Positions 148-10,812 of a stretch of 48,600 bases of DNA are shown piece after piece. The notes under the pieces were generated by a model. The model did not search any database and was not told the origin of the DNA. It saw only the letters and a program-made list of their open reading frames with translations. The translations under genes and the position numbers were made by a program. How positions within the stretch are numbered: the first letter of the stretch is position 1; each line of letters opens with the position of its first letter. Source of the DNA: Lachnospiraceae bacterium (GTDB taxonomy: Bacteria; Bacillota; Clostridia; Lachnospirales; Lachnospiraceae); NCBI GenBank assembly GCA_015056725.1, contig SVFS01000011.1:1-48600 (forward strand). The letters are read 5' to 3'.

Positions 148-1665
148 TTATCCATTTACTCTCTCATATGTTTCTGCAAAAATATTCTGCTCAATAATAT
201 ACACATCATGGAGATCATCCTTGCGAACCGCAAGATAATCCCCTTCTTTTCCGAGCATATATTTTTCTTCATCCCAAGGAGTAAACACCTTTACTCTGTG
301 ATCAAGCTGCTTTACATAAATATAACTTTCTCCCGTTGAGAAACATGCTTTTGCATGCGGTATTAAAGAAATATTATTTCCTTCTTTATTATCCCTGATG
401 ATTGGCTTATATTCTCCTTTAAACTGATACGGTGTATTCAGGCGCTTATATCCCATTTCAAATTTGTCTTTCATAATCGGATATACTTCACCCTTGATGC
501 CAATCATGATATAAATATCATTCCGGATTTCCACATCCAAATCGCCTTCTAAGGTACGAACAAGCGCATTAGCGCCCTTAGGCATAACTTCTGTTGCCTC
601 GACGTAACCAAGAGTAAGCGATTTCTTTTTGTACAGCTCCATCCCGCTTAGGTCTGCTTGATAATCATCCGTGTCAATAATCTCGATATCATCAAAATAG
701 TCTGTCATTCTGTAAATCAAAAGTTTTTCTATCCCTTCCGTTGTTTTCGGATATCCTTTTCGTTCACACTCCGGAAGTATCAGTTCCTGCTGAATAAAGC
801 CACCCGCTTTTTCCAAATGTCCGCCGCCGGAGCCAATTCCTTTGGTAATAAACTCCGCCAGTTCACTAGCCTTCACTTCTTTCACACAGCTTCTTACCGA
901 AATTTTCACACCAAACGGAAGTACACTGAATACGAGACACGTATCCACCGCATCTACCTCCAGCATCAAATCACTAATCATTCCCAAAATATTAGGATCA
1001 CATGGTGCCGCCTCCACAACAGCATAACGATAAGTCTCGTTATACGCATAATTCAGCAGCGCGTTGCCGGCAATTTCCATTTCCTGTAAAGACAGATTCG
1101 CATTCCGAAATCTTGTAATTGTACTGCGCTCAACAATGGCATCATCCCGCATATCCTTATCAAGCGGATGCGAAATTTCGGTAAAATTGTTTGTATCTGT
1201 CATCAGTCCATAATACAGTGCTGTTGCAAGCTTTTTATTATAATTAAAATCAATGCCTTCCGCCAGGAGTAATTCTCTGACAACTGTAGAGCAGGCTCCG
1301 AGATTACCTCTGACCTCATTTAGCTGGGGCAATTCGCCTCCTATCTGATGGTGATCAATTACCGCAACTTCTTTTGCCTCAAATCTTGTTACATTTCCCT
1401 GTCCGTATTGGCAATCTACTGTTATTAACAGTTCCGGTTCCTCCATAGAATCAACATATTCAATCGGTATTTCCAATTCGCTTATCATCAGTACTAAATT
1501 GCTCTTTTGAATTTTGTACTGTCCGCCGTAAACAAACCGTACTTTCTTACCCCTCTCCTGAAAATACAAATATACTCCAAATCCGCTTGCCAGTGCATCC
1601 GCATCCGGATTGTCGTGGCATTGTATTACAATATTGTCATATTCCATCAATTCTTCTAGTCTCAT
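148..1665 (-). CDS. DHH/DHHA1 family phosphoesterase with an extra C-terminal half
   Basis: This 505-residue cytoplasmic protein has the DHH phosphoesterase motifs: HDNPDADA at 17-24, a metal-binding Asp in ITVDC (D84), DHH at 104-106, and LMTDTNNF around 154-161. The DHHA1 substrate domain carries GSGGGH at 278-283. These are the features of NrnA/GdpP/RecJ-like enzymes that hydrolyse short oligonucleotides or linear/cyclic dinucleotides. Typical NrnA proteins stop near residue 320; here about 200 more residues follow. That region looks like two related modules (about 349-407 and 436-502) with TLEG, GE-YP and GDYL-type motifs and an F-x(3)-Y end, which I recall from phage-type 'GDW/GDYL' proteins. 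Its ATG overlaps the TGA of the upstream TIR gene (ATGA), implying translational coupling. The substrate is unknown. Confidence 0.85.
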   Translation of the reverse strand: MRLEELMEYDNIVIQCHDNPDADALASGFGVYLYFQERGKKVRFVYGGQYKIQKSNLVLMISELEIPIEYVDSMEEPELLITVDCQYGQGNVTRFEAKEVAVIDHHQIGGELPQLNEVRGNLGACSTVVRELLLAEGIDFNYNKKLATALYYGLMTDTNNFTEISHPLDKDMRDDAIVERSTITRFRNANLSLQEMEIAGNALLNYAYNETYRYAVVEAAPCDPNILGMISDLMLEVDAVDTCLVFSVLPFGVKISVRSCVKEVKASELAEFITKGIGSGGGHLEKAGGFIQQELILPECERKGYPKTTEGIEKLLIYRMTDYFDDIEIIDTDDYQADLSGMELYKKKSLTLGYVEATEVMPKGANALVRTLEGDLDVEIRNDIYIMIGIKGEVYPIMKDKFEMGYKRLNTPYQFKGEYKPIIRDNKEGNNISLIPHAKACFSTGESYIYVKQLDHRVKVFTPWDEEKYMLGKEGDYLAVRKDDLHDVYIIEQNIFAETYERVNG

Positions 1666-4600
1666 AAATCTCCCTCGTTGTCCATAGCATATCGGATACG
1701 TTCTTCTCTTGTCAGACGTGCATCACCAAACTGCTCTTTCGCTTCTTTGCAAAGCTGTTCCAATGTCATATACGGAAAACGATATAACGTCTTACTATAT
1801 TTCATATAGATGGCATCTCTCGATGGCATATAGCATGCACCATCCATTTCTTCTACAATCGGTTGATAGCTCTTTGTATCCATTAAAAGCAGTTCACCGC
1901 TTGTTAAAACCGCAAGTACCGACTGCTGTTCATGGTAAAAAGTTCTGCTAATACTATTATTCATCGTCATCGCAATATAAGCAAAGTCCTTCTTTTCTAT
2001 ATCATAAATGCGAATATAATAATCATCACCTTGCAATAACAACTTCGTATCGTTCTCAATAAATCCGATAAAACTCCGGTAAACACCCGCATAAGGTACT
2101 TCTGCAACTGTTTCCAATTTTTCCAAATCAAATATTCGCAGCATATAATCTTTACAGCTTACTGCAAAATAACGTCCATCTGACGAAAGTGCCATGCCCT
2201 TTTTATTATCAGAGCTTGTAATCATTTGATATTTTTCACGGTCTGCTGCGCGCTCATCTGTTTCCTGATCTTTATCTATCCGTATTTCTACTTCTGCATA
2301 TTCATCTTCTTTATATAGTTTATCCTGAAACAGCGTCGTTGCCTCTCCTGTAGCAGCTTTAAGTTTTGTTAGTCCCACCTCTTTTTGATTTCCATAAATG
2401 CATTTACCATCTTCTGATAAAATACCTCCATAGAAATAACTCAGAAATTCACCATCATCCACTACTTTTTGTTTTTTCAAATCAACAACTGCATATTTTC
2501 TTGATTGATATGCTAAAAGGTACTTTCCATTTTTTGTCATATAGCAATCTGTCATATAGTCTTCTTCAAACAAAGAAAGTCTATTCTCTTTTCCTTTTGC
2601 TACATCATAAAAATAAACATACCCTTTTCCGTCAAAAATATAATATGTTTCTTGGCCAACAAAGCCGCCACTTGTAAGAATCCCGTTTCCCGAACAAGTC
2701 ACACAGCCCATTTGCTGATCTGTAATAGCATCATAAAAATAAATATCTCTGGTATAGGAATCCACATAGGTTTCAACAGCATACATTTGCTCATCATCTG
2801 TATACCACACCTCACCTATCCTGTCCGAATATGTTTCCAGTTCTTCCATTCCATATCCGGTATGATATTTCATAATCGTAAGCTCGGATGAATATTTTTC
2901 CCGAATCGTAATCGTACTGTTTTTTATTTCTAACTGCGAAATATCCTTTCCCGTTTCAATGGCAGCACCACTATAATTCGTTCCGTTTGTTGTGTTTATA
3001 ATGTGAAGCGTTCCCGCCGCATCCGAAATATATCCAAAGTAATCATCTTTCGCAACTGCTAAAGAACGTATTCCCGTCCCCGTATGCAATCGGCAAAGTT
3101 CCTCACCGGTTATTGCATCATACGAATATACACCATTGTCAATTGACATGATTATTTCAGGATTCATTTTATTAAGTGCATCACGATAGCTCCGGGACTT
3201 TAACTGTAAGCTTGCAGCTTCTGCTCCGAAATATAAATATTCATAATTTGCTCTCCACTCTTCTGCTCCTGTGGAACTATCAAGTTTCTGCAACACGCCT
3301 TTGCATACATCCTGCCCCGATAAAATCTCCGTAGAATCAGAAGAAGCCACTACAATATCACCATCCGGTGCAAATACAACTTCCTGTATATAATCCGCTT
3401 GTGTCACATAATCTTTCTGCTGCCTTTTCTGTAAATCGTATACTGTCACGTAACCTTCAGAGGCAGTATCCTTTATAATATTATGGGATATGGCGCATTT
3501 TTTGTCCTTCTCAGAATATTCTATTTCCATAGAAAAACTATACTCCAACCTGTTTGGAATCCTATGGAGTACATCTCCGGTACGGATATCATGTATACAC
3601 ACCAAATCGCCGGATTGGCAAATAAGGATTTCATCTTCAAAATTATATTGACATTCGGATAAAGACAATTCTCCTTCCGGAATTTTTTTCCAAAGTTCTT
3701 TTCCGCTGTGCGAAATGCAACGGATGGAATTATCCTCTACAACGATAAGTCTGTCTTCAAAAGGTATTGCCGCTATCACATTTTCAACATAACCATTTTC
3801 ATCCAATGAAGGCAGTACCTGTAATAGTTTCTCACCGGTTTCCAAATCCCATACATAAATACTGTCGCTTTGATCTATGGACGCCAGTATGGTTCCCTCT
3901 TTATCATAGTAAAAATCACTTACCGGCAGGTCATGCTTCAGAACCCTATCCATTTTCATAATGTTTCCGGTATCGTAAGCATGTACTGCTTCTGTAAGAG
4001 CATACTGTGCAAGTGCCACATAAGGTCTGTCATCTTCTTCATTCGGTAATGCTTCCAATGCCACAAGTGCAGCTGCCTTCCTATCCCCTTCTTCTAAGAG
4101 TTCTATTGATTTATTTGCAAGATATTTTGACTGATTAATCTGTTTTTGTTCATAGTTCTGCCGAATCAGCATTGTATTGTATGCATTATAAATACCAAAC
4201 AGTACGCCAAGGCATGCTACTACTGCTGTTATTGCAACAATCTTTTTTAATCTGCGTTCTCTGTGACGTTGCCGCAAATCATCATAGCTACAGCCAAGCA
4301 GTGGAGCCAGAATACGAAGCAATTCTTCTTTCAGTTTCTTTTCTGTCTCTTTTTTTGTTTTTCCACGGACATCTGCTGCCAGAGGTTCGACTGCTTTTCC
4401 ATGTTCATCGCTTAATAAAATTTTAGGAAATGCCTCTGATGGTTCTCCTTCAATCAAAACAGCCAATACATGCTCTCTGTCATGAAGTTCTATAAACGTT
4501 TCTATTTCACGTTGCACCCATTCAGACTCCGGTGTACGTGGAGAACATATAACAATCAAATATTCCGATTCTTTCAAAGCACCAACAATATTATCTCCCA

Positions 4601-4778
4601 GGTCACTTCCTATCGGCAGTTCATCCTGATCACGAAATACTCTTTTAATAGACTTTTTTCCACTTTTCTTTCGGATTGCTCTTGGCACACGGAAAGTCTC
4701 TAAACTCTTATGTAATTTCTGGGCAAGAAACATATCTGCTTCTGCGTGTCTGTAACTAATAAATGCATCATAGCGCAT
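1662..4778 (-). CDS. TIR domain - transmembrane - beta-propeller protein
   Basis: A 1038-residue protein. Residues 1-125 form a TIR domain: box 1 DAFISYRHAEAD, a strand EYLIVICSP, and SEWVQREIE with the Glu (E91) at the place of the catalytic glutamate of TIR NADases. A basic stretch (RHRERRLKK) precedes one membrane helix at about 180-200, so by the positive-inside rule the TIR domain is cytoplasmic and the C-terminus lies outside. Residues 215-250 (LANKSIELLEEGDRKAA) match the helical linker often found before WD40 repeats. Residues 260-990 contain many degenerate beta-propeller blades, such as SIYVWDLETGEKLL and LRIFDLEKLETVAEV. The C-terminal LTREERIRY resembles the tail of other bacterial TIR/WD40 proteins. 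The start overlaps the upstream gene by 11 nt. NADase activity and ligand sensing are inferred. Confidence 0.85.
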   Translation of the reverse strand: MRYDAFISYRHAEADMFLAQKLHKSLETFRVPRAIRKKSGKKSIKRVFRDQDELPIGSDLGDNIVGALKESEYLIVICSPRTPESEWVQREIETFIELHDREHVLAVLIEGEPSEAFPKILLSDEHGKAVEPLAADVRGKTKKETEKKLKEELLRILAPLLGCSYDDLRQRHRERRLKKIVAITAVVACLGVLFGIYNAYNTMLIRQNYEQKQINQSKYLANKSIELLEEGDRKAAALVALEALPNEEDDRPYVALAQYALTEAVHAYDTGNIMKMDRVLKHDLPVSDFYYDKEGTILASIDQSDSIYVWDLETGEKLLQVLPSLDENGYVENVIAAIPFEDRLIVVEDNSIRCISHSGKELWKKIPEGELSLSECQYNFEDEILICQSGDLVCIHDIRTGDVLHRIPNRLEYSFSMEIEYSEKDKKCAISHNIIKDTASEGYVTVYDLQKRQQKDYVTQADYIQEVVFAPDGDIVVASSDSTEILSGQDVCKGVLQKLDSSTGAEEWRANYEYLYFGAEAASLQLKSRSYRDALNKMNPEIIMSIDNGVYSYDAITGEELCRLHTGTGIRSLAVAKDDYFGYISDAAGTLHIINTTNGTNYSGAAIETGKDISQLEIKNSTITIREKYSSELTIMKYHTGYGMEELETYSDRIGEVWYTDDEQMYAVETYVDSYTRDIYFYDAITDQQMGCVTCSGNGILTSGGFVGQETYYIFDGKGYVYFYDVAKGKENRLSLFEEDYMTDCYMTKNGKYLLAYQSRKYAVVDLKKQKVVDDGEFLSYFYGGILSEDGKCIYGNQKEVGLTKLKAATGEATTLFQDKLYKEDEYAEVEIRIDKDQETDERAADREKYQMITSSDNKKGMALSSDGRYFAVSCKDYMLRIFDLEKLETVAEVPYAGVYRSFIGFIENDTKLLLQGDDYYIRIYDIEKKDFAYIAMTMNNSISRTFYHEQQSVLAVLTSGELLLMDTKSYQPIVEEMDGACYMPSRDAIYMKYSKTLYRFPYMTLEQLCKEAKEQFGDARLTREERIRYAMDNEGDL

Positions 4779-6183
4779 CTAACATGCCTCCGTAACGTTT
4801 TTCTATATTTCTACTCCATGGCATAAGTGTCATAAGTAAATCCATTTCATCCATATGTAATACATCTAGCACTTCTCCCGTATTTTCAGGGATTTGCTCA
4901 GTCAGTTCTCTCATGTTGACTAACCCAGTCACTTTAATGACATTTGTGTCATTCTCTTTTATTGTAAGATAATTAATATCGATTTCTGTTGTTTCTTCCT
5001 TTATGCCACGTATGTCAGCCGAAACTGCCAACTCTTTCTTTCCTTGAATGATATTCATATAAACAGATAAGTCCTCTGTTATTTCTGCATCAAGTATTAT
5101 CTGTACCTCGTCAGAATCTTGTGTTTCCTCTCTTCCTATTTCTTGGTCAATTATTTCTTTGTTGCCCAACAGCACTTTTGCATCAACATTCACTTGATCT
5201 GTTATCTCTTCTTCTCCCAGAAATTGCAGTTCCGCTTCTTCTGTTATGATATTTCCATATTCGAATTCTTCTGGGAATCTAAGAATACGGACATTCTTAT
5301 TTTTATCAAGTGCAATTTCAAATGTACTACTCTCGTCTTTATCTTGTTTTCCCGACTCCTTTTCTCTGCTTCTTTCGTCTTCAAATGTAACAAGATATGT
5401 TCTTAGTTCTAACACCGACTCTTCAACAGTAATCGTTTCTTCCTTATCCGCCTTATCTACCTCATCAATTTCTTTATCTTCAAATATGTCCAGCAGCATT
5501 GTTTGAAGCCACACTTCATCCGGAATAGCTACATTATATGTTTCATATGGATATAACGATAATTCCATCGGTATTTTCACATCCAGATACTGGCTCAATT
5601 TCGATTCATTAAATTGCTTATCAATATGCTCCGTATTAAGCAAAATACTATCCGTTTCCGTGACTTCCGGCAAACACACCGCCAGCTCATCATGATACCC
5701 ATAAACATCAGCAAGAAGCATTTTTATTCTTGATATACTTATATCTGTATGCAGATACATCTTCTTATCAGTCACATTGCGCTGGAAAACGCCGTCTGCT
5801 CCAATCGTTTTTCCATCCAATTCGGGTACATTGCTGATGTTCAAAGTATAATCCACATCTACATTACCTGCTGTCAGACGATTGATACGCTTTTCAATCC
5901 CTTCTCCCGTAAGTAATGCTTTCTCCGATTCTTCCAATTCTTCAAGCAGCTTTTCCAGTCCTTTTTCCACCGGATGAGTAACCTTTGCTTTTTTCTTTAT
6001 CTCATTTACTATCCGATGACCTTCTTCCGTATCATCATTTTTAGGCACAAAAAATAGAATTGCAAGTATAGTTGCTATCGTAGCAAACCCAAATATACCA
6101 CCAAAAAATAACTTTGTTTTTAAATCGTGCTTTTTTTGTTTAGTTTCCCAACGTCGTACGTTTTTCCCAACCTGTTTTCTCAT
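4768..6183 (-). CDS. Single-pass membrane protein of unknown function
   Basis: I do not recognise this 471-residue protein. It has a basic N-terminus (KQVGKNVRRWETKQKKHDLKTK), one membrane helix at about 26-46, then a roughly 420-residue, strongly acidic extracytoplasmic region. That region has a helical stretch (about 70-110) and alternating strand-like segments, without cysteines or zinc motifs. This suggests a beta-rich lipid- or ligand-binding fold but does not prove one. It is the first gene of a tightly overlapping three-gene unit, and its 3' end overlaps the TIR gene by 11 nt. It may present or sense something for the propeller of the TIR protein. The start is supported by AGAGGATGGGGG a few bases upstream. 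Confidence 0.7.
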   Translation of the reverse strand: MRKQVGKNVRRWETKQKKHDLKTKLFFGGIFGFATIATILAILFFVPKNDDTEEGHRIVNEIKKKAKVTHPVEKGLEKLLEELEESEKALLTGEGIEKRINRLTAGNVDVDYTLNISNVPELDGKTIGADGVFQRNVTDKKMYLHTDISISRIKMLLADVYGYHDELAVCLPEVTETDSILLNTEHIDKQFNESKLSQYLDVKIPMELSLYPYETYNVAIPDEVWLQTMLLDIFEDKEIDEVDKADKEETITVEESVLELRTYLVTFEDERSREKESGKQDKDESSTFEIALDKNKNVRILRFPEEFEYGNIITEEAELQFLGEEEITDQVNVDAKVLLGNKEIIDQEIGREETQDSDEVQIILDAEITEDLSVYMNIIQGKKELAVSADIRGIKEETTEIDINYLTIKENDTNVIKVTGLVNMRELTEQIPENTGEVLDVLHMDEMDLLMTLMPWSRNIEKRYGGMLDAL

Positions 6184-9750: not shown

Positions 9751-10812
9751 TTATTTGTTTGCAATAGCTGCCTTAATCTGTTCTGTTAATAATGGAACAA
9801 CTTTGTTAAGGTCACCTACGATACCGTAATCAGCTACATCGAAGATTGGAGCATCTTCATCTTTGTTGATAGCAACGATAATGTCAGATTCTTCCATACC
9901 TGCAACGTGCTGGATTGCTCCGGAAATACCGATAGCGAAGTATACGTTAGGACGAACTGTCTTACCTGTCTGTCCAACCTGTAAATCTCTTACTTTCCAG
10001 CCGGAATCTACAACTGCACGAGAGCAGCTTACTGTACCGCCAAGTACTGCAGCGAGGTCTTCAAGAATCTTGAAGTTTTCAGCACTACCTACACCACGGC
10101 CACCGGATACAAGAATCTTAGCATCCATAATATCAACTGTATCTGTAACAGCTTTTACTACTTCTTTGATAGTTACATATTTGTTGTTAACTTCAAAGCC
10201 TGGGTTGTAGTTAATAACTTCTGCTTTAGCACCTTTGATTGGCTCGATTTTCTGCATAACACCTGGACGAACTGTAGCCATCTGAGGACGTGTATTAGGA
10301 CAAGCGATAGTAGCGATTGTGTTACCACCAAATGCAGGACGAGTCATCAGTAACTGGTTGTGTTTCTGTTCATCTTCTTTGCCTGGGATTGCTACTAATG
10401 GGAAATCACCGATTTCAAGTACTGTACAGTCAGCTGTAAGACCTGTAGCAACTCTTGCAGATACTGTAGGACCTAAATCTCTACCGATTGCTGTAGCACC
10501 TACTAACATGATGTCTGGTTTGTATTCATTGATTACAGAAGAAAGAGCATGTGCGTATGGCTCTGTTCTGTATGTTTCTAATTCCGGATCATCTACTACG
10601 ATAACTTTATCAGCACCGTATTCAGCTAAAGAATCAACTAAGTCGCCTACGTTAGAACCAAGAAGTACAGCTGTAACATCTGTATTTAATGGTGCTGCTA
10701 ATTCTTTTGCTTTACCAAGTAATTCATATGCAATGCCGCTGATTACGTTATCAACCTGCTGTGCATATACATATACGCCTTTATATTCTTGTAAACTCAT
10801 CTTATTCACCAC
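9751..10812 (-). CDS. etfA: Electron transfer flavoprotein alpha subunit
   Basis: 353 residues. The C-terminal FAD-binding domain is clear: ILVSGGRGVGSAENF, SRAVVDSGWK, QVGQTGKTVRP and YFAIGISGAIQHVAGM. The N-terminal half is the alpha/beta domain that packs against EtfB. With EtfB and Bcd it forms the cytoplasmic Bcd-EtfAB complex. In clostridia this complex couples crotonyl-CoA reduction by NADH to ferredoxin reduction (electron bifurcation). It is the last gene of the operon, 7 nt after etfB, and is followed by a strong terminator. Confidence 0.97.
   Translation of the reverse strand: MVNKMSLQEYKGVYVYAQQVDNVISGIAYELLGKAKELAAPLNTDVTAVLLGSNVGDLVDSLAEYGADKVIVVDDPELETYRTEPYAHALSSVINEYKPDIMLVGATAIGRDLGPTVSARVATGLTADCTVLEIGDFPLVAIPGKEDEQKHNQLLMTRPAFGGNTIATIACPNTRPQMATVRPGVMQKIEPIKGAKAEVINYNPGFEVNNKYVTIKEVVKAVTDTVDIMDAKILVSGGRGVGSAENFKILEDLAAVLGGTVSCSRAVVDSGWKVRDLQVGQTGKTVRPNVYFAIGISGAIQHVAGMEESDIIVAINKDEDAPIFDVADYGIVGDLNKVVPLLTEQIKAAIANK

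Follow-up and report, generated by a model that had tools for sequence, protein, structure and literature searches.

A predicted receptor-type TIR protein with tandem WD40-type propellers and its DHH phosphoesterase neighbour in Lachnospiraceae

Anatomy and predicted topology of P0001

The window analysed here is a stretch of 48,600 nucleotides from a Lachnospiraceae bacterium (GenBank assembly GCA_015056725.1, contig SVFS01000011.1, positions 1 to 48,600). Its gene at 1662..4778 encodes P0001, a protein of 1038 amino acids (aa) that combines a TIR domain, a transmembrane (TM) segment and two beta-propellers. The features of P0001 are listed below with the evidence for each.

1662..4778, minus strand: P0001, TIR-TM-double propeller protein, 1038 aa (open reading frame and translation, Pfam, AlphaFold2 model)
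4404..4778, minus strand: TIR domain, residues 1-125 (Pfam TIR_2, ThsB_TIR and TIR above cut-offs)
4506..4508, minus strand: codon of E91, the putative catalytic glutamate of WxxxE (invariant in 51/51 full-length relatives)
4170..4286, minus strand: basic juxtamembrane stretch and predicted transmembrane segment, residues 165-203 (hydropathy, charge bias in 135 homologues)
3987..4172, minus strand: helical stalk, residues 203-264 (helices 165-229, 233-243 and 255-264 in the model)
2859..3971, minus strand: first beta-propeller, residues 270-640 (strands in the AlphaFold2 model)
1770..2858, minus strand: second beta-propeller, residues 641-1003 (model strands; low-confidence insert 821-835)

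The AlphaFold2 model of P0001 (mean predicted local distance difference test score, pLDDT, 88.7) consists of the TIR domain, one long helix and two tandem WD40-type propellers. The helix is continuous over residues 165-229, with pLDDT values under 50 at residues 182-190, and spans both the basic stretch and the transmembrane segment; the length of the stalk differs among relatives. WD40-type Pfam matches were obtained at residues 847-976, and tandem-propeller IFT-A chains were superposed on the model over residues 271-1005 using VIA-align, with a large root-mean-square deviation. Solved propellers matched by the propeller sequence include that of the kinase PkwA. A first-pass annotation of the window, made from its letters, had described one helix after the TIR domain and a basic stretch, followed by about 750 residues of propeller-like repeats. 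Its observation on 1662..4778 is confirmed: in the model the single helix is present and the repeats fold into two propellers.

Judged by its TIR domain and WxxxE glutamate, P0001 is a member of the TIR fold family of nicotinamide adenine dinucleotide (NAD+)-cleaving enzymes (NADases). The Pfam ThsB_TIR model scored 40.1 bits (cut-off 21.2). The glutamate of WxxxE is the catalytic residue of TIR domains; in P0001 the motif is intact, with E91 in WVQRE, so the catalytic-type glutamate named in the first-pass annotation is upheld. Residues F6, S8, Y9, H11, R46, F48, R49, D50, E53, S85, W87 and E91 are invariant in all 51 full-length relatives. A profile search of solved structures with the TIR domain gave plant Roq1 and an Arabidopsis TIR as the best matches, followed by L6, TcpB and TLR2. 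We infer from sequence that the P0001 TIR uses NAD+.

Membrane topology was assessed using 135 non-redundant homologues out of the 144 loci examined. A hydrophobic segment (mean Kyte-Doolittle value of at least 1.4) follows the TIR domain in all 135, reaching at least 1.6 in 123, and a second one lies within the ectodomain in a single homologue. Lysine plus arginine residues within 20 positions of the segment are more numerous before it than after it in 128 homologues, equal in four and fewer in three (means of 6.1 before and 3.2 after). According to the positive-inside rule, the basic flank of a membrane helix faces the cytosol; because the bias lies on the TIR side, the TIR domain is predicted to be inside and the propellers outside. 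P0001 is thus a predicted one-pass protein with an internal TIR domain and an external propeller sensor, the arrangement that had been proposed at first pass, and both the charge bias and the model helix support it as a prediction.

Family distribution and the DHH phosphoesterase gene

The genome survey covered 397 Lachnospiraceae genomes, including that of the window, and the TIR-TM-propeller family was found in 55 of them. Matches to P0001 were also obtained in 13 of 98 near-relative genomes (own genome included) and in five of 249 genomes drawn across the phylum, two of these lying outside Lachnospiraceae. A single-sequence scan of genome contigs with P0001 gave no match. An alignment scan of genome contigs gave at least 563 relatives, of which the best 80 were taken, giving 79 loci; the set of 135 homologues and loci therefore leans towards near relatives of the window. 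Roseburia, Acetatifactor, Butyrivibrio and Pseudobutyrivibrio are among the named relatives. Among plasmid records, 13 (242,710 to 2,380,791 bases long) match P0001, and in seven the match covers at least 80% of the query. More distant relatives turn up in a 2.1-Mb Fusobacterium record and in plasmid records from Butyrivibrio, Sinorhizobium, Novosphingobium and others; those on the Butyrivibrio and Sinorhizobium plasmids are annotated merely as 'toll/interleukin-1 receptor domain-containing protein'. Mean pairwise identity among 51 aligned proteins is 0.695 in the TIR domain, 0.69 in the juxtamembrane region and 0.228 in the ectodomain.

Downstream of P0001 lies the gene of a candidate partner enzyme.

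148..1665, minus strand: P0002, DHH/DHHA1 phosphoesterase, 505 aa, partner (Pfam DHH)

The start of P0002 overlaps the stop of P0001 by four bases. The Pfam DHH model scored 57.9 bits (cut-off 28.1) and DHHA1 scored 22.0 bits, under its cut-off of 25.9. Profile matches to DHH phosphodiesterases, pyrophosphatases and NrnA cover residues 7-310, and D21, D23, D84, D104-H105-H106, D157 and G280-G282 with H283 are invariant in 36 of 36 sequences. By these matches and motifs P0002 belongs to the DHH/DHHA1 phosphoesterase superfamily; it scored below the NrnA equivalog NF053633 of NCBIfam (28.5 bits versus a cut-off of 350).

The family search supplied 60 loci, and 26 of these, besides the window, hold a long DHH gene; with named relatives added, it lies within three genes of the TIR gene in 64 of 135 loci. 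Directly adjacent same-strand pairs number 51 (DHH first in 41, TIR first in ten, the window among the latter); 17 TIR/DHH pairs overlap, 46 lie within 60 bp, and convergent pairs also occur. With long DHH called at E ≤ 1e-70, a limit chosen after viewing the match list, 65 of the 397 genomes carry the gene, and 35 carry both it and the TIR family, compared with 9.0 expected (Fisher p = 1.4e-18). A careful TIR tree was built from 123 rows after exclusion of 12 long branches, the DHH state being known for 116; on it, DHH presence changed 22 times, DHH position 11 times and RyR presence (see below) five times. A quick TIR tree of all 135 gave 25 DHH changes versus 42.6 in shuffles (lowest 34). 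Of 36 loci fetched by DHH, mostly from sites outside known TIR loci, 35 yielded the DHH gene. A TIR gene stands directly beside it in five (L118, L125, L129, L145 and L148), and in L152 a propeller gene lies near DHH, its TIR end being lost at the contig edge. In three cases the gene directly before DHH encodes a TIR-TM-DUF6273 protein (L125:6735-8252, L129:137-1552 and L148:6204-7610); in Faecalibacterium phages, it is DUF6273 in which the targets of diversity-generating retroelements have their variable regions (PMC11792537). These sequence data support the DHH gene as a true partner of P0001-type TIR genes.

Some members of the family have other layouts. In L099 (5172-8831) a protein kinase domain precedes the TIR-TM-propeller part by Pfam, and in L109 (6687-11000) Pfam finds the kinase, the TIR part being below Pfam detection and seen by BLAST only; such proteins would bear two signalling outputs on one receptor. 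Full TIR-TM-propeller genes stand in tandem in L195 (three), L200 (two) and L223 (two). The TIR-propeller gene is broken into two open reading frames within the ectodomain in L050, L201 and L203, beside full-length DHH genes, through decay, assembly error or switching. Elsewhere in the genome of the window (L002, G000:C33:2544-2774), a weakly similar stretch within a 596-aa frame shows 32% identity to P0001 residues 31-107 (E = 7e-4).

RyR-domain proteins and other neighbouring genes

A protein cluster adjoining DHH-less TIR genes consists mostly of membrane proteins of 460-690 aa with a C-terminal RyR domain. The RyR domain scored above the Pfam cut-off in L140, L168, L098, L256 and L264, and a search with the profile of the family gave ryanodine receptor 1 (RyR1) at E = 1.8e-16. 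Weak evidence (TrkA_N, 17.9 bits with a cut-off of 23.8, in L074) points to a Rossmann-like middle part. Among 97 TIR loci with full context, RyR was found in none of the 50 with DHH and in nine of the 47 without it (p = 0.00095). Of 20 RyR-fetched loci, hand-picked from the genome RyR matches, seven (L256, L257, L263, L265, L266, L268 and L273) have a Pfam TIR_2 gene within two genes; one of the 20, L260, does not match the local RyR model. In the initial set of loci, 15 of 16 matches to the RyR model lie in TIR loci, ten directly adjacent (that of L063 weak), a result that is partly circular because the model was built from TIR neighbours. No gene among 248 in 20 control regions on TIR-bearing contigs matched the local TIR or RyR models or P0002; the local TIR model misses some Pfam TIRs, for example that of L268. 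Other TIR-TM proteins lying beside DHH or RyR genes carry DUF6273 (L125, L129, L148), MORN (L140, L256) or Sel1 (L266) in their C-terminal parts.

RyR proteins also adjoin TIR-TM-MORN, TIR-TM-Sel1, TIR-NB-ARC-TPR and TIR-TPR proteins (L256, L257, L263, L265, L266, L268, L273 and L140). TIR-RyR pairs may form a module of their own. According to a preprint (PMC13232231), phage RyR-domain proteins cleave or sequester the cyclic ADP-ribose (cADPR) isomers 2'cADPR and 3'cADPR produced by Thoeris TIRs.

On the upstream side of P0001 lies a third gene.

4768..6183, minus strand: P0003, 471 aa, one TM segment near the N terminus, upstream gene (judged a syntenic neighbour)

Relatives of P0003 at E ≤ 1e-4 were found in three other genomes of the 397 (four with its own). 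All three (L134, L135 and L136) lie 3' of butyrate-operon-like genes, which we take to resemble thl-crt-hbd-bcd-etfBA, and two are among ABC-exporter-like genes; in the window, an etfA-like gene (9751-10812) lies upstream of P0003. A three-gene cassette is not supported, because these clear relatives follow butyrate operons. The exclusion is not clean: in one locus with TIR and DHH, a weakly matching gene (L073_6, 35.8 bits) is found two genes ahead of DHH. P0003 is probably not part of the TIR-DHH system, so that of the cassette suggested by the first-pass annotation the DHH neighbour stands and P0003 probably does not.

Between the etfA-like gene and P0003 (6577-9502), the window encodes an MBOAT O-acyltransferase and a 487-aa protein that gave no match in Pfam. 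In three Butyrivibrio loci (L170, L171 and L177) a gene of 219-222 aa, belonging to one cluster, directly precedes the TIR gene, and the L171 copy is a Nudix hydrolase by Pfam. A Nudix partner was considered and dropped: three loci are too few and probably represent one syntenic case.

Proposed signalling, rival explanations and known systems

We favour, with about even confidence, the reading that P0001 is a receptor-type TIR protein making an NAD+-derived messenger limited by the DHH enzyme; what goes beyond anatomy, fold, conservation and linkage we infer. The two-propeller ectodomain, on its helical stalk outside the membrane, would bind an extracellular or envelope ligand, and binding would cluster P0001 chains through the single helix. 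The cytosolic TIR domains would then come together and cleave NAD+, using the E91 site, to give an ADP-ribose-type product. This step is proposed because of the conserved residues and because NADase activity depends on self-association in SpbK, SARM1 and plant and other bacterial TIRs (PMC12847820). The product would serve as a messenger, beyond mere loss of NAD+. On account of gene linkage and enzyme family, the DHH/DHHA1 enzyme of the same operon would hydrolyse the product or a derivative of it, setting a threshold or ending the signal; at DHH-less sister loci the RyR-domain membrane protein may read the same kind of messenger. TIR plus RyR membrane protein would look like a messenger/reader pair and TIR plus phosphoesterase like a messenger/eraser pair. 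More tentatively, and with clearly less than even confidence, Clostridia may possess a class of TM-TIR receptors with varied ectodomains (WD40 propellers, DUF6273, MORN, Sel1) that make NAD+-derived messengers read by RyR or reset by DHH proteins.

Several observations weigh against the messenger scheme. DHH is missing within three genes of the TIR gene in 71 of the 135 loci (a contig edge cuts off eight of the 71), and 30 of the 65 long-DHH genomes lack this TIR family. Branch support on the quick TIR tree is low, being under 80 for 55 of its 132 inner branches. In L104, L106, L193 and L184 the RyR domain stayed under the Pfam cut-off; in L234, L074, L232 and L063 Pfam did not detect it at E 0.05. 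Since the RyR model was built from TIR neighbours, a more independent test comes only from the 20 RyR-fetched loci, themselves hand-picked. L140 carries DHH, an RyR protein and TIR-TM-MORN together, which contradicts strict exclusion. At the genome level, TIR-RyR association is modest (15 versus 7.8 expected, p = 0.004) and DHH-RyR association is absent (nine versus 9.2 expected). The genome of the window (assembly 85.6% complete) gave no RyR match and thus no candidate messenger reader for its copy. PADLOC models were applied at E ≤ 1e-10 to 128 of 393 eligible neighbours, as counts per model only: 50 models were matched, none by more than two members.

This last result also counts against the rather unlikely alternative that P0001 is an abortive-infection receptor, its ectodomain sensing phage at the envelope, its TIR domain depleting NAD+ and DHH acting as a second effector or salvage enzyme. 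TIR proteins such as SpbK do deplete NAD+ upon phage sensing (PMC12847820), and the patchy distribution (55 of 397 genomes) and divergent ectodomain would fit an arms race. These two features would be in keeping with defence, and also with competition or host-interaction sensing. Most of ten TIR-locus neighbours viewed by sequence are housekeeping-like (their names are our own presumed assignments). Ten of the 25 PADLOC models listed for the sampled neighbours are E1-E2 models with one member each, and 128 control genes matched 20 models, none by more than three members, Dnd/Ssp and Zorya-like matches included. The sampled neighbours thus show no clear enrichment in defence genes relative to the controls, and the defence-island setting that the first-pass annotation had raised did not emerge clearly. 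No P0001 relative was found in phage records at the search sensitivity used, nor was one confirmed among 17 pattern matches in viral contigs. A nucleotide-degrading or RyR partner would also be more natural for a messenger. The housekeeping-like neighbours favour instead an ordinary environmental or cell-wall receptor, comparable to one-pass Ser/Thr kinases with extracellular sensors, whose TIR output regulates physiology. The kinase-TIR-TM-propeller protein of L099, the kinase-bearing protein of L109, the tandem gene copies and the match to PkwA point the same way, but patchy presence and fast ectodomain divergence would be unusual for a core receptor, and we judge this explanation unlikely.

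WD40 propellers are mostly cytosolic, and the helix of P0001 might be a tether or buried, with TIR and propeller both inside as in NTPase-WD40 conflict proteins. The low pLDDT within the helix would agree with this, as would an intermediate cysteine content: pooled ectodomains contain 1.38%, between exported-like (1.22%) and cytosolic-like (1.56%) values, a measure that does not discriminate topology. Against it stand the charge bias and the universal hydrophobic segment among the homologues, as well as other TIR-TM proteins that bear DUF6273, the phage diversity-generating target domain (PMC11792537); a cytosolic propeller is therefore quite improbable. Equally improbable in our view is an incidental linkage, in which the long DHH would be a housekeeping nano-RNase sharing insertion sites with TIR genes. 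The long-DHH genomes devoid of this TIR family favour it, and shorter NrnA-like DHH proteins are common, but the occurrence of both gene orders, the overlaps, the convergent pairs, the repeated changes on the TIR tree and the adjacency to TIR-TM-DUF6273 proteins argue against it.

The messenger scheme can be set beside known systems. Like Thoeris ThsB, P0001 has a TIR domain of the same Pfam families and is a candidate producer of a messenger, its partner being encoded by a gene of its own; unlike ThsB, it is predicted to be membrane-anchored, carries a propeller ectodomain and is paired with DHH. ThsA-type effectors are of SIR2, TM-macro or caspase-like type (PMC12847820). Pfam gave no ThsA-type domain in P0003 or in the two genes further upstream, and on the other side P0002, a DHH gene, stops 147 bases short of the contig end; neither P0002 nor P0003 has a PADLOC match. 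The resemblance to Toll-like receptors noted at first pass holds for the predicted layout (cytosolic TIR, one helix, repeat-built extracellular part). It fails in detail: Toll-like receptors have N-terminal extracellular leucine-rich repeats (LRRs), a TM segment and a C-terminal TIR domain, whereas in P0001 the order is reversed, with the TIR domain N-terminal and predicted to be catalytic, and WD40-type propellers replace the LRRs in the C-terminal part. The plant TNL proteins Roq1 and L6 are among the closest solved TIRs by profile, over a region reaching past the catalytic glutamate, but TNLs are cytosolic and contain NB-ARC and LRR parts. PkwA-type kinases share the WD40 propeller sequence relation, with L099 joining kinase and TIR in one protein, and differ in output, which in P0001 is TIR. 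P0002 resembles the DHH-DHHA1 enzymes NrnA, TmPDE and cyclic di-AMP phosphodiesterases in its intact DHH and GGGH motifs and differs in its extra C-terminal region (301-505) and in its low NrnA score.

The bacterial TIR systems familiar to us sense inside the cell. In the open-licence literature, searched by titles and abstract openings, neither a TIR-TM-propeller plus DHH system nor a TIR plus RyR membrane pair was described. If the favoured reading is true, an extracellular sensor is wired to a TIR enzyme and bacteria use transmembrane TIR receptors, which would offer a tractable system for how an outside ligand turns on TIR catalysis. DHH would be a concrete eraser candidate, and the RyR membrane protein of sister loci a reader candidate, for the messenger. 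The TIR-RyR link known from phage evasion proteins (PMC13232231) would then become a signalling pair. On the more tentative reading of a whole class of such receptors, bacteria would have a counterpart of both the Toll receptor plan and the pairing of cADPR with the ryanodine receptor. The analysis suggests that bacteria possess their own Toll-receptor-like signalling proteins.

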